A DNA stretch of 64,000 bases, taken from contig NZ_MWPH01000003.1 of NCBI RefSeq assembly GCF_002177135.1, positions 558,001 through 622,000 on the forward strand. The letters run 5' to 3'. The notes below the pieces were generated by a model. It ran no database searches. It saw nothing but the letters and a program-made list of their open reading frames with translations, and was not told the origin of the DNA. This document shows positions 1,327 to 11,472 of this stretch, piece after piece. Positions within the stretch are counted from its first letter, which is position 1, and every line of letters begins with the position of its first letter. The DNA comes from Natronolimnobius baerhuensis (GTDB lineage Archaea; Halobacteriota; Halobacteria; Halobacteriales; Natrialbaceae). Made by a program: the position numbers and the translations under genes.

Positions 1327-4257
1327 ATGCAAAACAGTACACCAAAAGAAATCGGATCAATCAACTTCGGGCTGATGGAGCCCGAAGAGTACCGGGAGAT
1401 GAGCGCGACGAAGATCATCACCGCCGACACCTACGACGACGACGGCTTCCCCATCGACATGGGGCTGATGGATCCCCGCCTCGGCGTCATCGACCCCGGT
1501 CTCGAGTGTAAGACCTGTGGGAAACACTCCGGGTCGTGTAACGGTCACTTCGGCCACATCGAACTGGCTGCACCCGTTATTCACGTTGGCTTTACGAAGC
1601 TTATCCGCAGACTGCTTCGAGGGACCTGTCGGGAGTGTTCCCGACTTCTCCTGACGGAAGACGAGCGCGACGAGTTCCGCGACGACATTACGGAATCGCG
1701 CAAACTCGGTCGCGATCTGAACGACGTCACAAAATCGGCGATTCGGCAGGCCCGAAAGAAGGATCGCTGTCCGTTCTGTGGCGAGATTCAGTACGATATC
1801 GACCACGAGAAACCAACCACCTACTACGAGGTCCAGCAGGTGCTCACGAGCGAGTTCTCCCAGCGTATCGCCGGAGCGATGCAGGGCGACGAGGAGGAGG
1901 GCATCGAGCGGACTACGCCGGACGAACTCGCAGAAGACACCGAGATCGACCTTACTCGTGTCAACGAGATTCTCTCGGGGTCGTTCCGCCCGCGTGAAAA
2001 TCAGCGCAAAGCCATCGAGAAGGCCCTCGATATCGACCTCACTGAGGAGGATACGAACAAACTGATGCCAAGCGACATCCGGGACTGGTTCGAAAATATC
2101 CCGGACGAAGATCTCGAGGTACTCGGCATCGATTCCGACCGCTCGAGGCCCGAGTGGATGATCCTCACTGTCCTGCCGGTGCCGCCGGTCACTGCGCGGC
2201 CGTCGATCACGCTCGATAACGGCCAGCGTTCCGAGGACGACCTCACGCACAAGCTGGTCGACATTATCCGTATCAACCAGCGGTTCATGGAGAACCGTGA
2301 GGCTGGTGCGCCACAGTTGATCATCGAGGACCTCTGGGAACTGCTGCAGTACCACGTCACCACCTTCATGGACAACGAGATTTCGGGCACGCCACCAGCG
2401 CGACACCGCTCTGGTCGCCCGCTCAAGACGCTCTCCCAGCGTCTCAAAGGGAAGGAAGGTCGCTTCCGTGGCTCGCTTTCGGGGAAGCGTGTCAACTTCT
2501 CCGCGCGTACCGTCATCTCGCCGGACCCGACACTCTCGCTGAACGAGGTCGGTGTGCCGGACCGCGTCGCAAAGGAGATGACCCAGACGATGAACGTCAC
2601 CGAGCGCAATCTCGAGGATGCGCGGCGGTTCGTCTCGAACGGCCCAGAGGGCCATCCCGGTGCGAACTACGTTCGACGACCGGATGGTCGTCGTCTGAAG
2701 GTCACCGAGAAAAACTGCGAGGCGCTTGCAGAGAAAGTCAAGGCCGGTTGGGAAGTCAACCGCCATCTCATCGACGGCGACATCATCATCTTCAACCGCC
2801 AGCCGTCGCTGCACCGGATGTCGATCATGGCCCACGAGGTCGTGGTCATGCCGTACAAGACGTTCCGGCTGAACACCGTTGTCTGTCCGCCGTACAACGC
2901 TGACTTCGACGGTGACGAGATGAACATGCACGCCCTCCAGAACGAGGAGGCCCGTGCGGAAGCCCGCGTCCTCATGCGCGTCCAGGAGCAGATTCTCTCG
3001 CCACGCTTCGGTGAGAACATCATCGGCGCGATTCAGGACCACATCTCGGGGACCTACCTGCTGACTCACGACAACCCACGATTCAACGAAACGCAGGCAC
3101 TCGACTTGCTTCGAGCGACCCGGATCGACGAACTGCCGGAACCAAGTGGAATCGACGACGAGGACGAACCGTTCTGGACCGGCCACGACGTCTTCTCCGA
3201 ACTGCTGCCCGACGACCTCGACCTCGAGTTCACGGGCACCGTCGGCGACGATGTTGTCATCGAAGACGGCCAACTCCTCGAGGGCACCATCGCCGAGGAC
3301 GAAGTCGGCGAATTCGGTGGCGAAATTGTCGATACGATCACGAAGGTCTACGGCAACACCCGCTCGCGCATCTTCATCAACGAGATTTCGACGCTTGCGA
3401 TGCGTGCAATCATGCACTTCGGGTTCTCGATTGGAATCGACGACGAGACGATTCCCCCAGAGGCCCGCCAGCGCATCGACGAAACCATCGAAGACGCAAA
3501 CGACCGCGTCGAAGAGCTGATCGAGGCCTACGAAGCAGGCGACCTCGAGTCCCTGCCAGGCCGAACCATCGACGAAACGCTCGAGATGAAGATCATGCAG
3601 ACGCTCTCGCGTGCGCGTGACAACGCTGGTAACATCGCAGATGAAAACTTCACCGATGACAACCCGGCCGTCGTCATGGCCAGTTCAGGTGCACGTGGGT
3701 CGATGTTGAACCTGACCCAGATGGCCGGCTGTGTCGGCCAGCAGGCAGTTCGCGGTGAGCGAATTAATCGTGGCTACGAGAACCGGACGCTCAGCCACTA
3801 TCAGGAGAACGACCTCTCGGCAGAGGCACACGGCTTCGTCGAGAACTCCTACACCTCCGGCCTGACCCCACGGGAGTTCTTCTTCCACGCGATGGGTGGC
3901 CGCGAGGGGCTTGTCGATACAGCAGTCCGTACCTCGAAGTCCGGGTACCTGCAGCGTCGGCTGATTAACGCGCTGTCGGAACTCGAGGCACAGTACGATG
4001 GAACGGTCCGAGACACCTCGGACACCATCGTTCAGTTCGAGTTCGGCGAGGACGGCACGTCGCCGGTCAAAGTGTCCTCAGGTGAGGAAAACACCATCGA
4101 CGTCCCCAACATCGCAGATCGCGTCCTCGACGAGGAGTTCGACTCCGAGCGAGACCGCGAAGAGTTCCTCGGCCGGAAAGAACGGACGACAAACCTCTCC
4201 GAGCACGCGGATGATCGTCTGACCGTCGACAGCCCGGAGGTGACCTCCGATGACTAA
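1327..4257 (+). CDS. rpoA1: RNA polymerase subunit A'
   Basis: Largest catalytic subunit of archaeal RNA polymerase, first half (976 residues, the usual haloarchaeal size). The N-terminal zinc region [11 protein letters not shown] with NGHFGH and a second Cys pair set (CRECSR, CPFC) are present. The catalytic magnesium loop [10 protein letters not shown] is intact near base 2900, preceded by the RQPSLHR motif. The C-terminal quarter carries the bridge-helix region ([19 protein letters not shown]). The start ATG lies seven bases after the rpoB1 stop. The 3' end overlaps rpoA2 by eight bases, which suggests coupled translation. The split between A' and A'' is normal for archaea, not a frameshift. 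Confidence 0.98.
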
Positions 4258-5446
4258 CGTCGAATACAACGTCACCGACGACATGATCGCCGTCGTCGAA
4301 GACACTGACCTCCCACGGCGACTCAAAGACAACGTCTACGAAGAACTCGAGGGCCGCGCCGACGCGACCGTCGAGGACGCAGACGACCTCGCAAAGGCCG
4401 TCGAACTTCGCTATCTCGATACGCGTGTCGATCCACTCGACCCCGTCGGTACCGTTTCGGCCCAGTCGATTGGTGAACCCGGAACGCAGCTGACGATGAA
4501 CACGTTCCACTATGCGGGTGTCGCAGAGATCGACGTGACCCAGGGGCTTCCCCGGCTTATCGAGCTGGTCGACGCCCGAAAGACGCCCGACACGCCGATG
4601 ATGACCGTCCATCTCGAGGACGAGTACGCCACGGAGCGAGAGATGGCCCACAAGGTCGTCTGGAACATCGAGGCAACGAAAATCCTCGCACTGGGTGACG
4701 TCTCGACGAACGTCGCCGACATGCGCGTCCAGATCTCGCTCAACCGCGACACACTCGAGGAGCGTATGATCACGCCCGAGGAAGTCGCAGAGATCATCGA
4801 GGACAACCTCTCGGTTAGTACGGTTCAGCAGGGTACCGAGATTCAGTTCGGTCCCGAGGAGCCGTCCTATCGCGACCTGCTCCAACTGGTCGAAGAACTG
4901 CGCGACATCACATTCAAGGGTATCGAGGAGGTTTCCCGCGTCGTTATCCGTCGCGAGGAAATGGACGAGGGACACGAGGAGTTCGTCCTCTACACTGAAG
5001 GGTCGGCCTTCGGCGATGTCCTCGAGATCGAGGGCGTCGACGCCTCCCGGACGACGTGTAACAACATCCACGAAATCCATCGTAACCTCGGTATCGAGGC
5101 TGCCCGTGAGGCCATCATCGAGGAGACCCACAACACGCTCGCCGAGCAGGGACTTGACGACGTCAACGTCCGACACCTGATGCTCGTCGCTGACATGATG
5201 ACCAACCGCGGCGAGATCGAGTCGATTGGCCGCCATGGTATCTCCGGGTCGAAAGACTCCGTACTCGCTCGTGCTGCGTTCGAGGTGACAGTCAACCACC
5301 TGCTCAACGCCGCAATTCACGGCGAGATCGACACCCTGCAGGGCGTTACCGAGAACGTCATCGTTGGCAAGCCGATCAAACTCGGCACCGGCGACGTCGA
5401 CCTGCGGATGGGCTCGACGACGCCCGGCGGCAGTCAGGCCGACTGA
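4250..5446 (+). CDS. rpoA2: RNA polymerase subunit A''
   Basis: C-terminal half of the largest RNA polymerase subunit (398 residues). It contains the trigger-loop region with [16 protein letters not shown] near base 4470, which moves in each nucleotide-addition cycle, and ends with the cleft/clamp segment including [19 protein letters not shown]. The ATG at 4250 sits inside the end of rpoA1, an overlap seen in many haloarchaea. It is followed by nusA after three bases. It assembles with A', B', B'' and the small subunits. Confidence 0.98.
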
Positions 5447-5449
5447 TCG

Positions 5450-5962
5450 ATGGGGGTTACCCTCGACGACGAGGCCCGACAGTATCTCGCTGCGTTCGAA
5501 GACGTGACGGGTGTGTCGGGTATCGACTGCATCGTCCAGTCCGCCACTGACGTCGACCTCGAGCCAGCCCACACCCAGGAGACAGCTGCTGGGGCTGCAA
5601 CCGCTGGCGATCACACTGGCGCCGATGACGATGACGACCAACTAATCGTCGTCGTCTCGAGTGACGCAATGGGTGAAGCAATCGGTCCCGGCGGTCGAAC
5701 GGTCAGGCGCTTCGAGGACGAACTCGGGATGTCGGTTCGGCTCGTTGCCGACGCAGACGACCCAGAGACGTTCGTCGCGAACACGCTCGCGCCCGCAGCG
5801 GTCTACAACGTCACGATCAGCGAAAACGACGATACCGTTGCCTACGTCGAAGTGGCAACCGAGGACCGTGGCGTCGCAATCGGGTCGAACGGACAGACAA
5901 TCGAGGCCGCACGACGACTCGCGCAGCGCCATTTCGGCATCGACGACGTGCAGTTGGTCTAA
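5450..5962 (+). CDS. nusA: NusA-like transcription factor with two KH domains
   Basis: Archaeal NusA homologue, an RNA-binding elongation/termination factor lacking the bacterial N- and C-terminal domains. Two KH folds are visible: the first carries a GPGG loop (GEAIGPGGRTVRRFEDEL), the second a GSNG loop (AIGSNGQTIEAARRLAQ). The protein has 170 residues, somewhat longer than the roughly 140 I remember for haloarchaeal NusA. The extra length is a Thr/Ala/Asp-rich stretch at about residues 30-62, before the first KH strand. The gene starts three bases after rpoA2 and is surely co-transcribed with it. It is followed by a 285-base gap before rps12. Confidence 0.93.
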   Translation: MGVTLDDEARQYLAAFEDVTGVSGIDCIVQSATDVDLEPAHTQETAAGAATAGDHTGADDDDDQLIVVVSSDAMGEAIGPGGRTVRRFEDELGMSVRLVADADDPETFVANTLAPAAVYNVTISENDDTVAYVEVATEDRGVAIGSNGQTIEAARRLAQRHFGIDDVQLV

Positions 5963-6215
5963 CTCGATTGCAATGCTGGCAGTTCCGCTCTCGACCGTCA
6001 GTCGCTTTGACGTTTATTTTAGCCAAGCAGTGATACCGCCAGACAAACGAGACTCGACGTTTTACCCTCTCTGTCGGTCGAAACGCTGTCCTGACTGGGA
6101 TCCGGTCGTTTGCGACGAGGTGATGAGCATCGCGCTCGAGCGACGAAACGCCACGAGAATCCTTCGTTGACCCCCCTCGAGCGCTCTCGAGGCGTAACGC
6201 CGAATCGAAACGGGT

Positions 6216-6225
6216 CGCTTAAGTG
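6216..6225 (+). promoter_or_regulatory. TATA-like element before rps12
   Basis: The sequence cgcttaagtg lies about 25-30 bases before the rps12 ATG at 6248, the distance expected for a TATA box serving a leaderless transcript. The 285-base gap after nusA (5963-6247) otherwise holds no reading frame I believe; other T-rich elements (gtttatttta near 6012) could be additional promoter parts. Inference from spacing and composition only. Confidence 0.4.
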
Positions 6226-6247
6226 CCTTCGACGGATAGCGACGCGC

Positions 6248-6676
6248 ATGGCAAACGGCAAATACGCCGCGCGCAAGCTCAAGAAAGACCGCCAGGAGCA
6301 GCGGTGGTCCGACTCGGACTATGCGCGCCGTGCCCGTGGACTTCGCGAGAAGTCCGACCCACTCGAGGGAGCGCCCCAGGGTCGAGGTATCGTTCTCGAA
6401 AAGGTCGGCATCGAAGCAAAGCAGCCAAACTCGGCAATTCGAAAGTGTGTCCGAGTGCAGCTGATCAAAAACGGAAAGCAAGTCACCGCGTTCTGTCCCG
6501 GTGACGGTGCCATTTCGTTCATCGACGAGCACGACGAAGTTACCATCGCCGGTATCGGTGGGGCGAAGGGTCGTGCAATGGGTGACCTCTCCGGTGTCAA
6601 CTACAAGGTTGACAAGGTCAACGGCGTCGCAATGAAAGAACTCGTTCGCGGAAACGCAGAGAAACCGGTGCGATAA
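6248..6676 (+). CDS. rps12: 30S ribosomal protein uS12
   Basis: Small-subunit ribosomal protein uS12 (142 residues), which lies at the decoding centre. The conserved segments [19 protein letters not shown] and the [19 protein letters not shown] region are intact. The ATG at 6248 was chosen because [16 protein letters not shown] is the known N-terminus of haloarchaeal uS12; longer in-frame extensions run through non-conserved, probably untranslated sequence. It is separated from rps7 by two bases. It begins its own transcript or is read from the rpo operon. Confidence 0.97.
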
Positions 6677-6678
6677 TC

Positions 6679-7287
6679 ATGGCGGCAGAAGACCAACCAG
6701 ACCCAGACGCCCCAGCCGGCGGCGCAGACGTGTCGGCACAGCTCTTTGGCGAGTGGGAACTCGGCGAACTCGAGTACGCCGACCCATCGACCGAGCGCTA
6801 CATCACGGTGACGCCAGTCGCACATACCGCTGGTCGCCACGCCAGAAAGCAGTTCCAGAAGTCCCAGATCTCGATTGTCGAGCGCTTCATCAACCGTCTC
6901 ATGCAGACGGAAGAGAACACGGGCAAGAAACAGCAGGCCCTCAGCGCTGTTCGTGACTCGTTCGAACTGATCCACGAGCGCACCGAGGAGAACCCAATTC
7001 AGGTTCTCGTCACCGCCGTCGAGAACTCGGCCCCACGAGAGGAGACCGTCCGCCTGAAATACGGTGGTATCTCGGTCCCGAAGGCCGTCGACGTCGCTCC
7101 ACAGCGCCGTGTCGACCAGGCTCTGAAGTTCCTCGCAGACGGTGTCTACAACGACTCGTTCAAGACGCCAACGTCCGTCCCGGAGGCCATCGCCTCCCAG
7201 CTGATTGGCGCAGCGAACTACGACGTCCAGACGTACGCCGTCAGCCAGAAAGAAGAAAAAGAGCGCGTCGCGGCAGCCGCACGCTAA
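6679..7287 (+). CDS. rps7: 30S ribosomal protein uS7
   Basis: Small-subunit ribosomal protein uS7 (202 residues), the assembly protein of the 30S head. The core FINRLMQTEENTGKKQQA and the RRVDQALKFLADGVY segment are clear. An acidic Asp/Pro-rich N-terminal extension is typical for halophiles. It starts two bases after the rps12 stop and is the last gene of the block; T-rich DNA follows. In many haloarchaea the aEF-2 gene follows closely, but here about 5 kb of other genes intervene. Confidence 0.97.
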   Translation: MAAEDQPDPDAPAGGADVSAQLFGEWELGELEYADPSTERYITVTPVAHTAGRHARKQFQKSQISIVERFINRLMQTEENTGKKQQALSAVRDSFELIHERTEENPIQVLVTAVENSAPREETVRLKYGGISVPKAVDVAPQRRVDQALKFLADGVYNDSFKTPTSVPEAIASQLIGAANYDVQTYAVSQKEEKERVAAAAR

Positions 7288-7503: not shown

Positions 7504-8073
7504 GTGGTGTTGGAATCGACACAGCGGATACTCGTTGTCCATCGCGAGCGGCCGCTCTCCGTCATCGACTCTGAGCGCCTCTCCGTTCCGATTGCTATCG
7601 ATCAGGTGTCCTTCGATATCTCGATCCTCGAGCAACTCGAGAACTGCTATGACCTACTGGTCCTCGACTGGCACCTCGAGCAGCCGGACGCTCGCGGTGT
7701 CCTCGATGCCTTCCGCCAGACCGCGCCCGAGAGTTGGGTGCTCGCACTCGCCGCAGAAGTGCCCGACGATGATCCAGTTGACCGCGGCGTCGACGAAGTC
7801 CTCGTCGAACCAGTCGCTCCAACCGCCCTCGCTGGGACCCTCGAGCGCTTGCTTTTCCAGTGTGCCTACGAGCGAACGATGCACAACCTGTTCCGTCTCT
7901 CGACCGAACGCGCCGTCCTCGAGACCGAACTCGAGTCGGATGTGGCTGTCGGGGATCAGTATCAGTCCGTTGTACAGGAGCTACAGACCTGTCGTGAGCG
8001 TGCAGCGTCGATTCGTGCGGAACTGTCAGGAGACTCGTTCGACCAGACGCTTCGACAGCTGTTTAGTGAGTGA
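7504..8073 (+). CDS. HalX-type regulator with degenerate receiver domain
   Basis: Resembles haloarchaeal receiver-HalX proteins (189 residues). Residues 8-110 look like a CheY-like receiver with the strand LLVLDWHL and a candidate phospho-Asp at residue 55. The first strand ILVVHRERP lacks the acidic pair, and the usual Lys-Pro after strand five is replaced (EVLVEPVAP). Phosphorylation is therefore doubtful, and a pseudo-receiver is likely. The C-terminal 75 residues (YERTMHNLFRLSTERAVLE onwards) match the helical HalX domain, a probable output or dimerisation module. The GTG at 7504 sits about 30 bases behind a TATA-like element, so a leaderless start is plausible. No kinase gene is adjacent; the nearest is at 22917. 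Confidence 0.75.
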   Translation: MVLESTQRILVVHRERPLSVIDSERLSVPIAIDQVSFDISILEQLENCYDLLVLDWHLEQPDARGVLDAFRQTAPESWVLALAAEVPDDDPVDRGVDEVLVEPVAPTALAGTLERLLFQCAYERTMHNLFRLSTERAVLETELESDVAVGDQYQSVVQELQTCRERAASIRAELSGDSFDQTLRQLFSE

Positions 8074-8149: not shown

Positions 8150-8240
8150 AGCGCTAGCTATTTTTCGTTATATATAATATTACCGCCAATATTTATGATA
8201 TATTAAGATAGATTAATTTCTGATCGGCCACATTTTACAG
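8150..8240 (+). promoter_or_regulatory. AT-rich promoter region of the DUF7503-like peptide gene
   Basis: This 90-base stretch is made almost only of A and T (for example gttatatataatatt and gatatattaagatag), in sharp contrast to the GC-rich surroundings. It ends just before the ATG at 8248. Several TATA-like elements lie at the right distance for a leaderless transcript. The exact element cannot be chosen by eye. Confidence 0.5.
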
Positions 8241-8247
8241 TCGTACC

Positions 8248-8373
8248 ATGCAAGACATGACAGAATACCTCGCGAAACACCCACGAATGATTGGCGTGCT
8301 GTTCACAATTATGATTTTGTTGTCACAATCAGGGACCGCAGCGGCGAGCGCTTCTGCCTATTACGGGCCGTGA
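8248..8373 (+). CDS. 41-residue hydrophobic peptide, DUF7503-like
   Basis: Tiny membrane peptide: a polar N-terminus (MQDMTEYLAKHPR), one hydrophobic helix of about 17 residues (MIGVLFTIMILL…), then an Ala/Ser-rich tail ending AYYGP. It matches my memory of the haloarchaeal DUF7503 family, roughly 40-residue proteins with an EYLAxxPxMIGVLFT start. Function is unknown. It could be a single-pass membrane peptide or a signal-peptide-like molecule cleaved after the Ala-rich stretch. Its stop codon ends one base before the stop codon of the convergent CHAT protease gene. The preceding AT-rich block gives it its own promoter. Confidence is high that it is a gene and low on its role. Confidence 0.75.
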   Translation: MQDMTEYLAKHPRMIGVLFTIMILLSQSGTAAASASAYYGP

Positions 8374-8374
8374 A

Positions 8375-10456
8375 TTACAGGATGTCCATTTCTATCGTAT
8401 CACTCCAATATAGCTGATTTTCAAATAGAACTGGGAACCTGCCTATATCAAAAAACTCCCCTAGTTGTGATATATCGGTTGGGAACCAACCAGTCTGATC
8501 TGGAATAATGTAGTAATCTTCGATAGGGTCTATATCCGGAGTGAAGACTCCCCCATTTGATGATCTCACTTCGCCATATGCAATAATATTGGATTCATAC
8601 CCATCTTCCCCCTGCCTGACTAAGCAAATATCTGGCATTGCCGTTTCTGATTGTGCGATTGTTGCCCTGCCATCGCCGACAATAAGATACTGTTGTCCGA
8701 TAATATTCTCGATTCTTGCGACATCAAGTGCCGCGTATAGAGGAAATCCGCCATTTAGCAATTGGGCGATTACACTTCCCATCTTCACTGCACCACTATT
8801 GACAATATCTCCTAGTGTTACAATACCACCAATACTCCCCGCATCAATGAGATGGAGCCCTTGGTCGTGGGATTGACACGCATTCAGTAAAAACGCCTCT
8901 ACCCCCACTGAGTCCATAGTTGACGCGTCAAATTTCCCATCTGAACACTGGAATCCTTCCCTATCGATGTGGCCAATATAGTGAAAAAAGTCGCTCTCGG
9001 TGGCGAGTGTGTTCTTGAGTTCGGCCGTTGTGAAATCGTAATGAATGGACACATTGAACGGCAGTCGGTTGTGTGTTCCGTAGAACCCATTTACCGACTC
9101 AAGTTCGTCCTGCATCTCTGCATCATTACAGACGACTTCTATTTCAATGGGGTCTGGTCGTGGCGTTCGACCAATTCGATTGTAGTATGCCGAAACTGGT
9201 GTCGTACTATTGATGTCTGTGCCGTGTATACTCTGCCAGACTTGCGTAATTGTTGTTTGTGGAGGGTGGTCGGCAGTATCTGAATCAGATATCGGTGTCT
9301 CTTGATTTCCACGGATTGGACTTGCACTCCGGACAAAATCAGCACGAGTAAATGAGTCAATTGCTTCAACTGTCTCTTTGGTTGGCTCTGGTGTCTCTGT
9401 CTTTTCATCAATACTAATTATCGCAAGTTCGTCCGCCAAAAATGGAAGGAAATCAATGGTTTCGGCCACTGCGTTGACCTGTGTCTCGAGTCTCCAATTA
9501 GGATAGTACTCGTCAATAGAGGCTGAATCAACCTCGAGATAGGCCTGAACCCGCTCATGGAGCGGACGGCTATACATCTCCTCGAGATCAAACTCGAGAA
9601 GTGGTTCAATTGCTTTTCGTCTGTACAACGGAAGTGGTGTTGGTCCTTCAGTTCGAACGACGCAATCGAGAACGAAGATATGTTTTAATACCCGTTTGAC
9701 AGTGTTCTCGAATCCGTCCGGGCCACAGAGAGAGTACGTATACCCTGACTCAGTCATGATCTGTGGCTCGGAACCGGATCGAATGGTTGCACCCAGATAA
9801 TATGAAAGTGGTGTGACGACGAATATGTCCTGTAATTTCGGAGGCACAACTATCTCGATACCTGTCTCTAATTCTGTAAGTGTATCTGGAATTTCAAGTT
9901 CGTCGCCGACCTCAAGCATCGGAGGATGGCCACGGAGCGTCGGGTATGATCGTTCTGCAGAGGTTGTCTTTAACGCAGAACTAAATATCGAGACAGCCTC
10001 CATCACATCCGTTGGCTTGGTCGTCGTCGTAATCGTGTCTGCTGGTCGTCGATGAAATGATCGTGCACCAATCAGGCACTGTGTCTCCCCATCGAAGGAA
10101 ATATGCGTTTGTTCGTTATCTGAATAGATATATACGGAACTATTGATGTGTGCGTAGACTTTGAGTGACCCAGAAATGTCGAGATTGTAGGTTCCGTGAG
10201 GAAAATACGCGTGATCGTCTGATTGGACTTCTGCCTTCATCAACCCCTCTTTGTTGCGAACAAGAACGCGATTCATCGTTGGAAGTACGATTTCGTCCGT
10301 TACGATCTGTGCCGCCGTCCCGATTGGAAACGGAATGCCATGCTCTTCAACCGGTTCCGGCGACACCGCACGAGGCGTCTGCAGATGATAGCGCCGTCGC
10401 TCGATGGGGTCGATAATCTCGAGTCCGGTATCGGTGGCGTCGAATGTCGGTTTCAT
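8375..10456 (-). CDS. CHAT-domain cysteine protease
   Basis: Large protein (693 residues) whose C-terminal part is a CHAT domain, a caspase/separase-like clan CD protease. The catalytic His is in FHYIGHID (His496, the second of the two) and the catalytic Cys in LLNACQS (Cys527); the spacing and the following Gly-rich GSIGGIVTLGD fit the family. The N-terminal about 450 residues have no repeat or TPR pattern I can recognise and may be the sensor or substrate-recognition part. No signal peptide or membrane segment is seen, so it is probably cytoplasmic. The gene is AT-richer than its neighbours, with many ATA, AAT and TTA codons, which suggests acquisition. It lies 86 bases downstream of a DUF7504-like gene on the same strand, probably co-transcribed. 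It is convergent with the 41-residue peptide gene. Confidence 0.85.
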   Translation of the reverse strand: MKPTFDATDTGLEIIDPIERRRYHLQTPRAVSPEPVEEHGIPFPIGTAAQIVTDEIVLPTMNRVLVRNKEGLMKAEVQSDDHAYFPHGTYNLDISGSLKVYAHINSSVYIYSDNEQTHISFDGETQCLIGARSFHRRPADTITTTTKPTDVMEAVSIFSSALKTTSAERSYPTLRGHPPMLEVGDELEIPDTLTELETGIEIVVPPKLQDIFVVTPLSYYLGATIRSGSEPQIMTESGYTYSLCGPDGFENTVKRVLKHIFVLDCVVRTEGPTPLPLYRRKAIEPLLEFDLEEMYSRPLHERVQAYLEVDSASIDEYYPNWRLETQVNAVAETIDFLPFLADELAIISIDEKTETPEPTKETVEAIDSFTRADFVRSASPIRGNQETPISDSDTADHPPQTTITQVWQSIHGTDINSTTPVSAYYNRIGRTPRPDPIEIEVVCNDAEMQDELESVNGFYGTHNRLPFNVSIHYDFTTAELKNTLATESDFFHYIGHIDREGFQCSDGKFDASTMDSVGVEAFLLNACQSHDQGLHLIDAGSIGGIVTLGDIVNSGAVKMGSVIAQLLNGGFPLYAALDVARIENIIGQQYLIVGDGRATIAQSETAMPDICLVRQGEDGYESNIIAYGEVRSSNGGVFTPDIDPIEDYYIIPDQTGWFPTDISQLGEFFDIGRFPVLFENQLYWSDTIEMDIL

Positions 10457-10542
10457 TAGACGGGGTCCATCGGTCTGGTCGACGAGATGGCGTCAGTTAC
10501 GCTGAATCAGAACGCGACCAGTATGACTGTGTTGTCGCTGAG

Positions 10543-11322
10543 TCAGGAGCGTGAGATCCAGCCGGACTTTCGCCCCTCGTCCGTAAGTGACCAGCGCTCT
10601 TCGTAGCCGTCCGCCCGATCTTGTACTTCGAGGACGACATCGAATAGCGACGAAAGCACCGAGACGATGGTCGCATCGTGTTCGACCGGCAAATGGCAGT
10701 GAAACATGCCGTCGGCGGCTGTCGTTCGGCCGGTGATCAGATGCAGAAAGGTGAACACGGTTTCTCTGTCGGACGCCTCGAGGAGTGGCAACAGTGAGTC
10801 GATGCCGACGCGCAGTTCGGCGGGTTCGAGGCCGTCGGCGTCAGTGTCGAAGAATTCAATTGCACTCGAGATAGCGATGCCGACGTCTGCGAGGGAGTCA
10901 ACGGTAACGCGTGCTGGGGCAACGGTCGAAGAGTTGGTCGTTGCTGTCGGCGCGGTGGCTGTCTCGGGGTGGGGGGGTGTGGATGGCGTGTCCGGGTCGG
11001 TCTCGTCTGCGGTCGGTGGTGACTGGTGGGCGGTGGTGCCGCGTGCGGGGGCGTCGTACGTGATGTGTCGGAACGTTGCGGGCGTTGAGTCTGCTCCGGG
11101 TGTGGGCCAGACCGCCTGACCGGTTGTCGAGACGGCGATGCGCCGTCGCAGAGTGTCAACACTGGATTCGTCTCCGAACAGTCGGCGACAGATGTCTCGA
11201 CGGTGGTCTGGTTGAAGCGAGCCGACGACGAGGACGCTCGCGCCGTCGTGTTTTAGCTGACGCAGTTTCGTCGTGAACCCCCCGTCGGTCGACGTATCGC
11301 CGCTGACTGGACCCGAGAACAT
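10543..11322 (-). CDS. DUF7504-like protein, partner of the CHAT protease
   Basis: 259 residues from the ATG at 11322. A longer frame exists upstream but is not family-like. Residues about 18-65 (KLRQLKHDGASVLVVGSLQ, CRRLFGD, RRRIAVSTTG) look like a nucleotide-binding-fold strand-helix unit without an intact Walker motif. A Pro/Thr-rich linker of about 50 residues follows. The C-terminal half (SAIEFFD, GLEPAELRVGIDSLLPLLE, FTFLHLITGR, MFHCHLPVEHD) matches what I remember of haloarchaeal DUF7504, often beside DUF7503 genes. That half resembles the fold used by RecA-like gas-vesicle or KaiC-like sensor proteins, but this is a guess. It is upstream of and same-strand with the CHAT gene, so it is probably its regulator or scaffold. 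Confidence 0.65.
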   Translation of the reverse strand: MFSGPVSGDTSTDGGFTTKLRQLKHDGASVLVVGSLQPDHRRDICRRLFGDESSVDTLRRRIAVSTTGQAVWPTPGADSTPATFRHITYDAPARGTTAHQSPPTADETDPDTPSTPPHPETATAPTATTNSSTVAPARVTVDSLADVGIAISSAIEFFDTDADGLEPAELRVGIDSLLPLLEASDRETVFTFLHLITGRTTAADGMFHCHLPVEHDATIVSVLSSLFDVVLEVQDRADGYEERWSLTDEGRKSGWISRS

Positions 11323-11472
11323 CAGTTGTATGATCAGAAAAGATGGCGTAATAAACATTAAACGTTCGGGTCTCTTGTCAGCGCCTGATACTGGTTCCCA
11401 GACAGCGCCGATCACGCTCGAGCGTTCTCACGAACCCCCGTTTGTGTCTCCTGTCTTGAGACGCGCTGTGGA

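Follow-up and report, generated by a model that had tools for sequence, protein, structure and literature searches.

Caspase-like proteases are encoded beside a dedicated protein partner in Craspase (Cas7-11-Csx29 with Csx30) and in bacterial protease-gasdermin operons. In the haloarchaeon Haloferax volcanii, caspase-like (LEVDase) activity was measured, and the gene behind this activity is unassigned (PMC3615174). In this study, we analyzed a window of 64,000 nucleotides from Natronolimnobius baerhuensis (contig NZ_MWPH01000003.1; positions below are window coordinates) that encodes a CHAT-family cysteine protease of 693 residues (8375-10456, minus strand). The end of this gene faces a gene for a 41-residue DUF7503 micro-protein, MQDMTEYLAKHPRMIGVLFTIMILLSQSGTAAASASAYYGP (8248-8373, plus strand), with 1 base between the two stop codons. 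A DUF7504 protein of 259 residues (10543-11322, minus strand) is encoded 86 bases upstream of the CHAT gene. All three open reading frames were recovered where an earlier reading of this DNA, here called the original prediction, had placed them. Nearly all haloarchaea carry a CHAT gene, and its end almost always faces a micro-protein gene, which points to an ancient, undescribed protease-partner pair.

Among the genomes of the family, CHAT and DUF7504 were each present in 117/117 and DUF7503 in 114/117. The pairing count was based on the best 150 DUF7503 genes in the family. A listed CHAT gene was located within 1 kb of 116 of these 150 genes, and 115 of the 116 pairs were convergent, with gaps of 5-345 bases. 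Of the remaining DUF7503 loci 33 were fetched, and 30 of them were convergent with CHAT within 700 bases. Thus, at least 145 of the 150 DUF7503 genes (115 + 30) face a CHAT gene, and the proposal that the module is non-random and the peptide a dedicated partner is supported. In named loci from many haloarchaeal genera and several families (up to 22 kb viewed), one DUF7503 gene directly faced CHAT in 72 of 80 cases. Exceptions include a degraded match in the DUF7503 slot (L110) and a displaced DUF7503 gene on the other strand (L172). The latter locus (Natronomonas, 2996-6628) is the sole named one in which DUF7503 was moved onto the CHAT strand, and a response-regulator/PAS gene lies between the two. 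Ten genomes of the order that gave no CHAT match also gave none for DUF7503. The flanks of the pair vary, and no gene cluster besides CHAT and DUF7504 recurs beyond 20 of the 87 loci; the pair thus persists among paralogues with unrelated flanks. The adjacency of CHAT and DUF7503 is far beyond chance, and their convergent pairing is nearly obligate. About a dozen rows have a tandem second CHAT gene on the far side of DUF7503; here a single peptide gene stands between two CHAT genes and faces the first copy (L089, L093, L107, L111, L113-L115, L117-L119, L121, L123 and L124).

The CHAT protein of the window had no match of its own in Pfam, NCBIfam or PADLOC; therefore, the CHAT label had to be proved, and only the fold settled the question. 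A profile of 61 relatives detected no PDB chain by sequence. PF12770 (CHAT) was matched weakly by 10 of the 61 relatives (best E 1.7e-4) and not by the window protein, which thus stays below the cut-off of this family. The AlphaFold2 model (pLDDT 88.4, pTM 0.88) yielded SAVED-CHAT (8tl0, E 4.7e-8), separase (1.4e-6) and gingipain as top Foldseek matches. VIA Z scores were 18.9 for gingipain RgpB, 18.6 for SAVED-CHAT (root-mean-square deviation 2.6, 170 aligned) and about 15 for separase; Csx29 (13.8, CHAT domain only) and the caspases (12-13) scored lower. Cys527 in the motif LNACQS (codon 8876-8878, minus strand) is the predicted nucleophile and His496 in the motif HYIGHI (codon 8969-8971, minus strand) the predicted general base. 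Both residues are kept in 61/61 aligned relatives from related genomes (29-89% identity), and the loss of Cys and His in close homologues, named in the original prediction as a possible refutation, did not occur. The order His...Cys and the caspase-hemoglobinase fold of the catalytic domain agree with membership in clan CD. PF12770 is regarded here as one detection model and not as a definition, and the window protein is filed as a divergent CHAT protein on its modeled fold and dyad. Judged from the model, the assignment of the catalytic domain as a CHAT/clan CD protease is sound, and enzymatic activity is predicted. The protein consists of an N-terminal part (residues 1-350), the CHAT domain (about 400-605) and a strand-rich C-terminal tail. 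The N-terminal ~350 residues are strongly conserved across haloarchaea, and no SAVED, TPR or Cas family was found in Pfam scans of the protein. Compared with its flanks, the CHAT gene had a lower G+C content in 74 of 88 cases; the difference averaged 5 points.

In a tree of 173 CHAT proteins, 155 rows formed a pair clade (125 with the peptide) and 14 a solo clade, and four proteins were distant. His496 and Cys527 are invariant in 155/155 pair-clade and 14/14 solo-clade proteins. With a fold that matches SAVED-CHAT, separase and gingipain and a dyad invariant in 169 haloarchaeal relatives, the original prediction of a CHAT protease with intact dyad holds. Members of the solo clade have neither a DUF7503 nor a DUF7504 neighbor and keep the dyad; therefore, pairing marks one large clade and not CHAT proteins generally. 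The solo clade is the older of the two, and both solo and more distant CHAT relatives are devoid of the peptide. The solo clade includes the third CHAT copy of this genome (L079, about 4999-7236, C1 1.05 Mb) as well as the loci L190-L199 and L203-L205. Position 550 is D/E/N in 142 of the 155 proteins of the pair clade, and K/Q prevails in the solo clade. A P1 preference derived from a separase-like S1 acid at this position was considered, and no claim is made, since the alignment register with separase is uncertain. The four distant relatives (L206-L209), from another family of the phylum, have no peptide; only three of the four keep the predicted His, and only three the predicted Cys.

The window peptide passes the gathering score of PF24335 (DUF7503) clearly (77.2 versus 27 bits, E 7e-22). 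It starts with a basic edge (KHPR), followed by one hydrophobic helix and a C-terminal tail that ends in Gly-Pro; its single hydrophobic segment reaches a Kyte-Doolittle value of 1.97 over 15 residues. Among 131 distinct DUF7503 peptides, the Pro of the H/N-P-R motif and a following Arg/Lys were found in all (131/131 each). Within the hydrophobic segment, Phe was kept in 130/131, Gln in 126/131 and Gly in 126/131, and a C-terminal Gly-Pro was present in 112/131. At the terminal Gly and Pro, every Gly codon and every Pro codon is in use, and substitutions in 532 peptide pairs are skewed to codon position 3; therefore, selection acts on the DUF7503 protein. An AT-rich promoter-like region with a short leader precedes the gene (8175-8247, plus strand), with a TATATTAAGATAGATTAATTT box about 30-50 bases before the ATG. 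In an alignment of 133 upstream sequences, the information content exceeded 1 bit at -40, -38 and -36. This promoter-like AT-rich region is unusually conserved, and CCATTGG-type repeats occur in many second-type copies. A promoter motif common to CHAT/DUF7504 and DUF7503 was rejected, as the two upstream regions differ by eye.

Of the new observations, the most revealing is the persistence, and even multiplication, of the tail when the helix is gone. In the window the tail reads SASAYYGP (8347-8370, plus strand), and this is the element that is retained elsewhere after helix loss. Tails can differ between the two paralogous pairs of a single genome, as with SASAYYGP and GSTSQLGP. Helix-less forms were obtained by inspecting CHAT genes that had no DUF7503 hit. 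In Haloplanus ruber, MSKRDSGTVAAADKTRQSNV and then 13 copies of TADGNSGGISGP[YFS], in a 39-base repeat, are encoded in the convergent slot, which overlaps the stop codon of CHAT; no DUF7503 above the cut-off was found elsewhere in this genome. Helix-less arrays of this kind occur in eight of 12 Haloplanus genomes, with 4, 5, 7, 7, 10, 13 and 14 tails and one array masked in part, and a ninth genome (L230, with the matching metagenome-assembled genome L171) has a two-tail form. The other three encode an ordinary DUF7503 that ends in SNGGGISGP, GNSGAISGP or SNGAATSGP. Array and ordinary DUF7503 occupy the same slot, with stop codons overlapping that of CHAT. An N-terminal MSE[ST]DSGTVA is common to the ordinary Haloplanus peptides and some array forms, and a promoter-like region similar to that of DUF7503 is kept ahead of the array genes. 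On the Haloplanus CHAT tree about three changes between array and ordinary partner are needed, and the tail copy number differs among close species. A search of 342 genomes of the order for other repeat-array partners gave clear cases in Haloplanus only. The replacement of DUF7503 by an array gene opposite the CHAT stop is seen in the Haloplanus loci L219-L227 and also, for example, in L182 (12034-12681, minus strand).

Single tails have survived as well. Halococcus encodes a 41-residue helix-less peptide that ends in CTYSGP. In three Natrinema loci (L016, L028 and L034, just before position 1486), the hydrophobic core of DUF7503 has decayed, the GGLFTGP end is kept and CHAT is intact. At two loci PGP-ending peptides below or outside Pfam detection hold the same convergent position, and a relative of one ends in SGP; these divergent peptides are found in L128 (1742-1879, plus strand, on a Halorussus plasmid), L105 (10934-11104, minus strand) and L216. 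The Pfam DUF7503 family is therefore too narrow, because divergent, helix-less and array forms escape its cut-off. Thus, the Gly-Pro tail is the most persistent part of DUF7503 and can outlive the hydrophobic helix.

We propose that CHAT and its convergent DUF7503 form a two-part haloarchaeal proteolysis module, in which the tail is recognized as substrate or regulatory ligand and DUF7504 is optional; we consider this reading rather probable. DUF7503 has a single predicted membrane helix and a short C-terminal tail that is rich in Gly/Ser/Asn and ends in Gly-Pro. CHAT is predicted to be a soluble protease, and the tail is most likely what it recognizes. The helix would put the tail at the membrane, where CHAT would bind and probably cut it, making DUF7503 the cognate substrate or a regulatory ligand of CHAT; the tail may be cut, may activate CHAT by clustering or may block its cleft. 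In some lineages the helix is dispensable, and a soluble protein carrying as many as 14 tandem tails stands in for it, which would provide multivalency. In the loci that have it, DUF7504 probably shares a transcript with CHAT and provides regulatory input. We infer a physical interaction, cleavage and a membrane location, and the module might serve regulated proteolysis or influence cell fate.

Several observations weigh against this proposal. The tails of 19 of the 131 peptides end in IS, GI, GT, IR, GL or TY and not in GP, and tail sequence varies by lineage, so that no single rule of binding is evident. Some of the Haloplanus arrays may be repeat drift, yet frame, unit and terminal GP are kept. 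One DUF7503 gene is an orphan with no CHAT nearby (L055), one lies 4.5 kb from CHAT (L060) and one is convergent at a distance of 1.5 kb (L050). For a few pair-clade CHAT genes no partner could be recognized in the available sequence; one of these loci, L151, is masked in part.

DUF7503 could also be a securin-like inhibitor, with the tail as pseudo-substrate in the CHAT cleft and the helix keeping CHAT parked at the membrane until it is released by a signal. Separase is among the closest folds to CHAT, the separate and strongly conserved promoter region of DUF7503 would fit steady expression, and multivalent arrays could sequester several proteases. However, the CHAT proteins of the solo clade and those beside the decayed Natrinema copies have no intact cognate peptide, which would be costly for an essential brake unless a paralogue peptide substitutes. 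A substrate or ligand is favored over an inhibitor, since some intact CHAT genes stand next to a decayed partner, and we regard an inhibitor as not very likely.

The layout of the peptide resembles the n/h/c regions of a signal peptide, with AAA or VAA ahead of a variable small-residue tail. Potentially, DUF7503 is therefore the precursor of an exported peptide, cut after Ala-Ala to release a mature ...GP tail of 8-10 residues, with CHAT as intracellular processor or receptor. Tandem arrays likewise resemble multi-copy peptide precursors. Yet signal peptides are usually much less conserved than this hydrophobic segment, and no signal peptide is present in the array and Halococcus forms, so that we hold such a precursor to be unlikely.

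The genomic site and the distribution of the module bear on a role in defense. In the window, the module is flanked by S12-S7 and by DUF5781-EF2. This is also its position in the other S7-linked loci of Natrialbaceae that were examined; therefore, the site is ancestral there. The original prediction had suggested an insertion into a housekeeping neighborhood, and this had to be given up: a recent insertion is rejected on the synteny with other Natrialbaceae loci. A HalX-domain response-regulator-like gene (7504-8073, plus strand; PF08663, 26.8 bits) is located upstream of DUF7503 and co-directional with it. It had a tblastn match in about half of the loci at the S7-EF2 site and is at most an accessory to the module. 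CHAT was found in most of the order, and haloarchaeal megaplasmids also carry copies. The original prediction had leaned towards a defense effector. In such an abortive infection system, infection would unleash CHAT and the cut peptide would damage the membrane. CHAT and caspase-like proteases act in this way in bacteria, for example in type III-E Craspase and gasdermin systems, and a tiny hydrophobic partner could be lytic. This idea is not supported. None of the three proteins had a PADLOC match at E up to 1, and no relatives were found among IMG/VR viral contigs. All 117 genomes of the family and most of the order have CHAT, which occupies an ancestral housekeeping site in Natrialbaceae; such a distribution is neither patchy nor mobile. 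In Haloplanus, moreover, soluble arrays take the place of the hydrophobic peptide. A role as a defense or abortive-infection effector is quite improbable.

In nearly all cases the genes are convergent and their 3' ends lie close together or overlap (in Haloplanus the stop codons overlap). The overlapping transcripts might therefore regulate each other, the peptide being incidental or its Gly-Pro-stop slowing termination. We regard this coupling as highly improbable: the whole peptide is conserved at the amino-acid level while its last Gly and Pro codons are free, gaps range from overlap to 345 bases with no fixed length, and the tails are repeated in tandem as protein. As for a type I toxin-antitoxin system, with a small hydrophobic toxin and an antisense RNA as antitoxin, the helix-less forms speak against a simple membrane toxin.

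DUF7504 is an optional third gene of the two-part module formed by CHAT and DUF7503. The window protein passes the gathering score of PF24336 (174.2 versus 27 bits), and its start is most likely the ATG at 11322, which is favored by homologues; an upstream GTG at 11415 also exists. Its AlphaFold2 model (pLDDT 85.4) has KaiC as top Foldseek matches (E 8.8e-7), and Walker A (GxxxxGK[ST]) was found in 0/34 relatives. With a KaiC-like fold and no Walker A, DUF7504 is therefore a putative pseudo-ATPase and not a KaiC ATPase. In 61/61 close DUF7504-CHAT pairs, and for 42 of the 47 DUF7504 open reading frames in the loci examined, DUF7504 was directly upstream of CHAT on the same strand. The original prediction of three adjacent families stands strongly for CHAT and DUF7503 and partly for DUF7504, which accompanies about 40% of CHAT copies (80 of 195 rows), with further DUF7504 genes in the genomes. 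In L178 and L181 (Pfam-tested), and similarly in L183, an N-terminal HalOD1 is fused to DUF7504 directly upstream of CHAT. The KaiC-like fold and the HalOD1 fusion together make a signaling input by DUF7504 plausible.

H. volcanii has DUF7503 and DUF7504, and sister Haloferax species have the whole CHAT-DUF7503 pair. We put forward as a hypothesis that the CHAT family is the source of the caspase-like activity of H. volcanii; this family, most members of which are labeled hypothetical, is a direct candidate for a haloarchaeal activity that has no gene. More broadly, and only tentatively, regulated proteolysis in which CHAT acts on a dedicated membrane micro-protein, or is controlled by it, through the Gly-Pro tail might be ancestral and near-universal, with soluble tail arrays in some lineages, and CHAT might account for at least part of the haloarchaeal caspase-like activity. 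The pair offers a compact natural system, in genetically tractable archaea, for how CHAT proteases choose partners.

A literature search returned no mention of DUF7503 or DUF7504, and none of the CHAT domain together with haloarchaea or Haloferax. The Pfam entry of DUF7503 (PF24335) gives no function or partner, and the present analysis ties this family to CHAT. The window DUF7504 protein is a clear member of PF24336, of which only some copies per genome are CHAT-linked. Thus, a context is assigned to two Pfam families of unknown function. Within the CHAT (PF12770)/clan CD set, the catalytic fold and the order of His and Cys are like those of SAVED-CHAT (8tl0), separase (5fby/5fc2), RgpB (1cvr/4ief) and the TPR-CHAT protein Csx29 (8eex). 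In contrast to SAVED-CHAT and Csx29, haloarchaeal CHAT has its own N-terminal 350 residues, no SAVED or TPR recognized by Pfam and a micro-protein as partner, and no CRISPR or CBASS context was seen around it. As in Craspase and the protease-gasdermin operons, the haloarchaeal protease is encoded beside a dedicated partner. However, this partner has only about 41 residues, is not gasdermin-like in size and is encoded convergently and not in an operon, and the pair is near-universal in haloarchaea and, as far as seen, not RNA-guided. No tested feature puts the pair among the Craspase, SAVED-CHAT or gasdermin systems.

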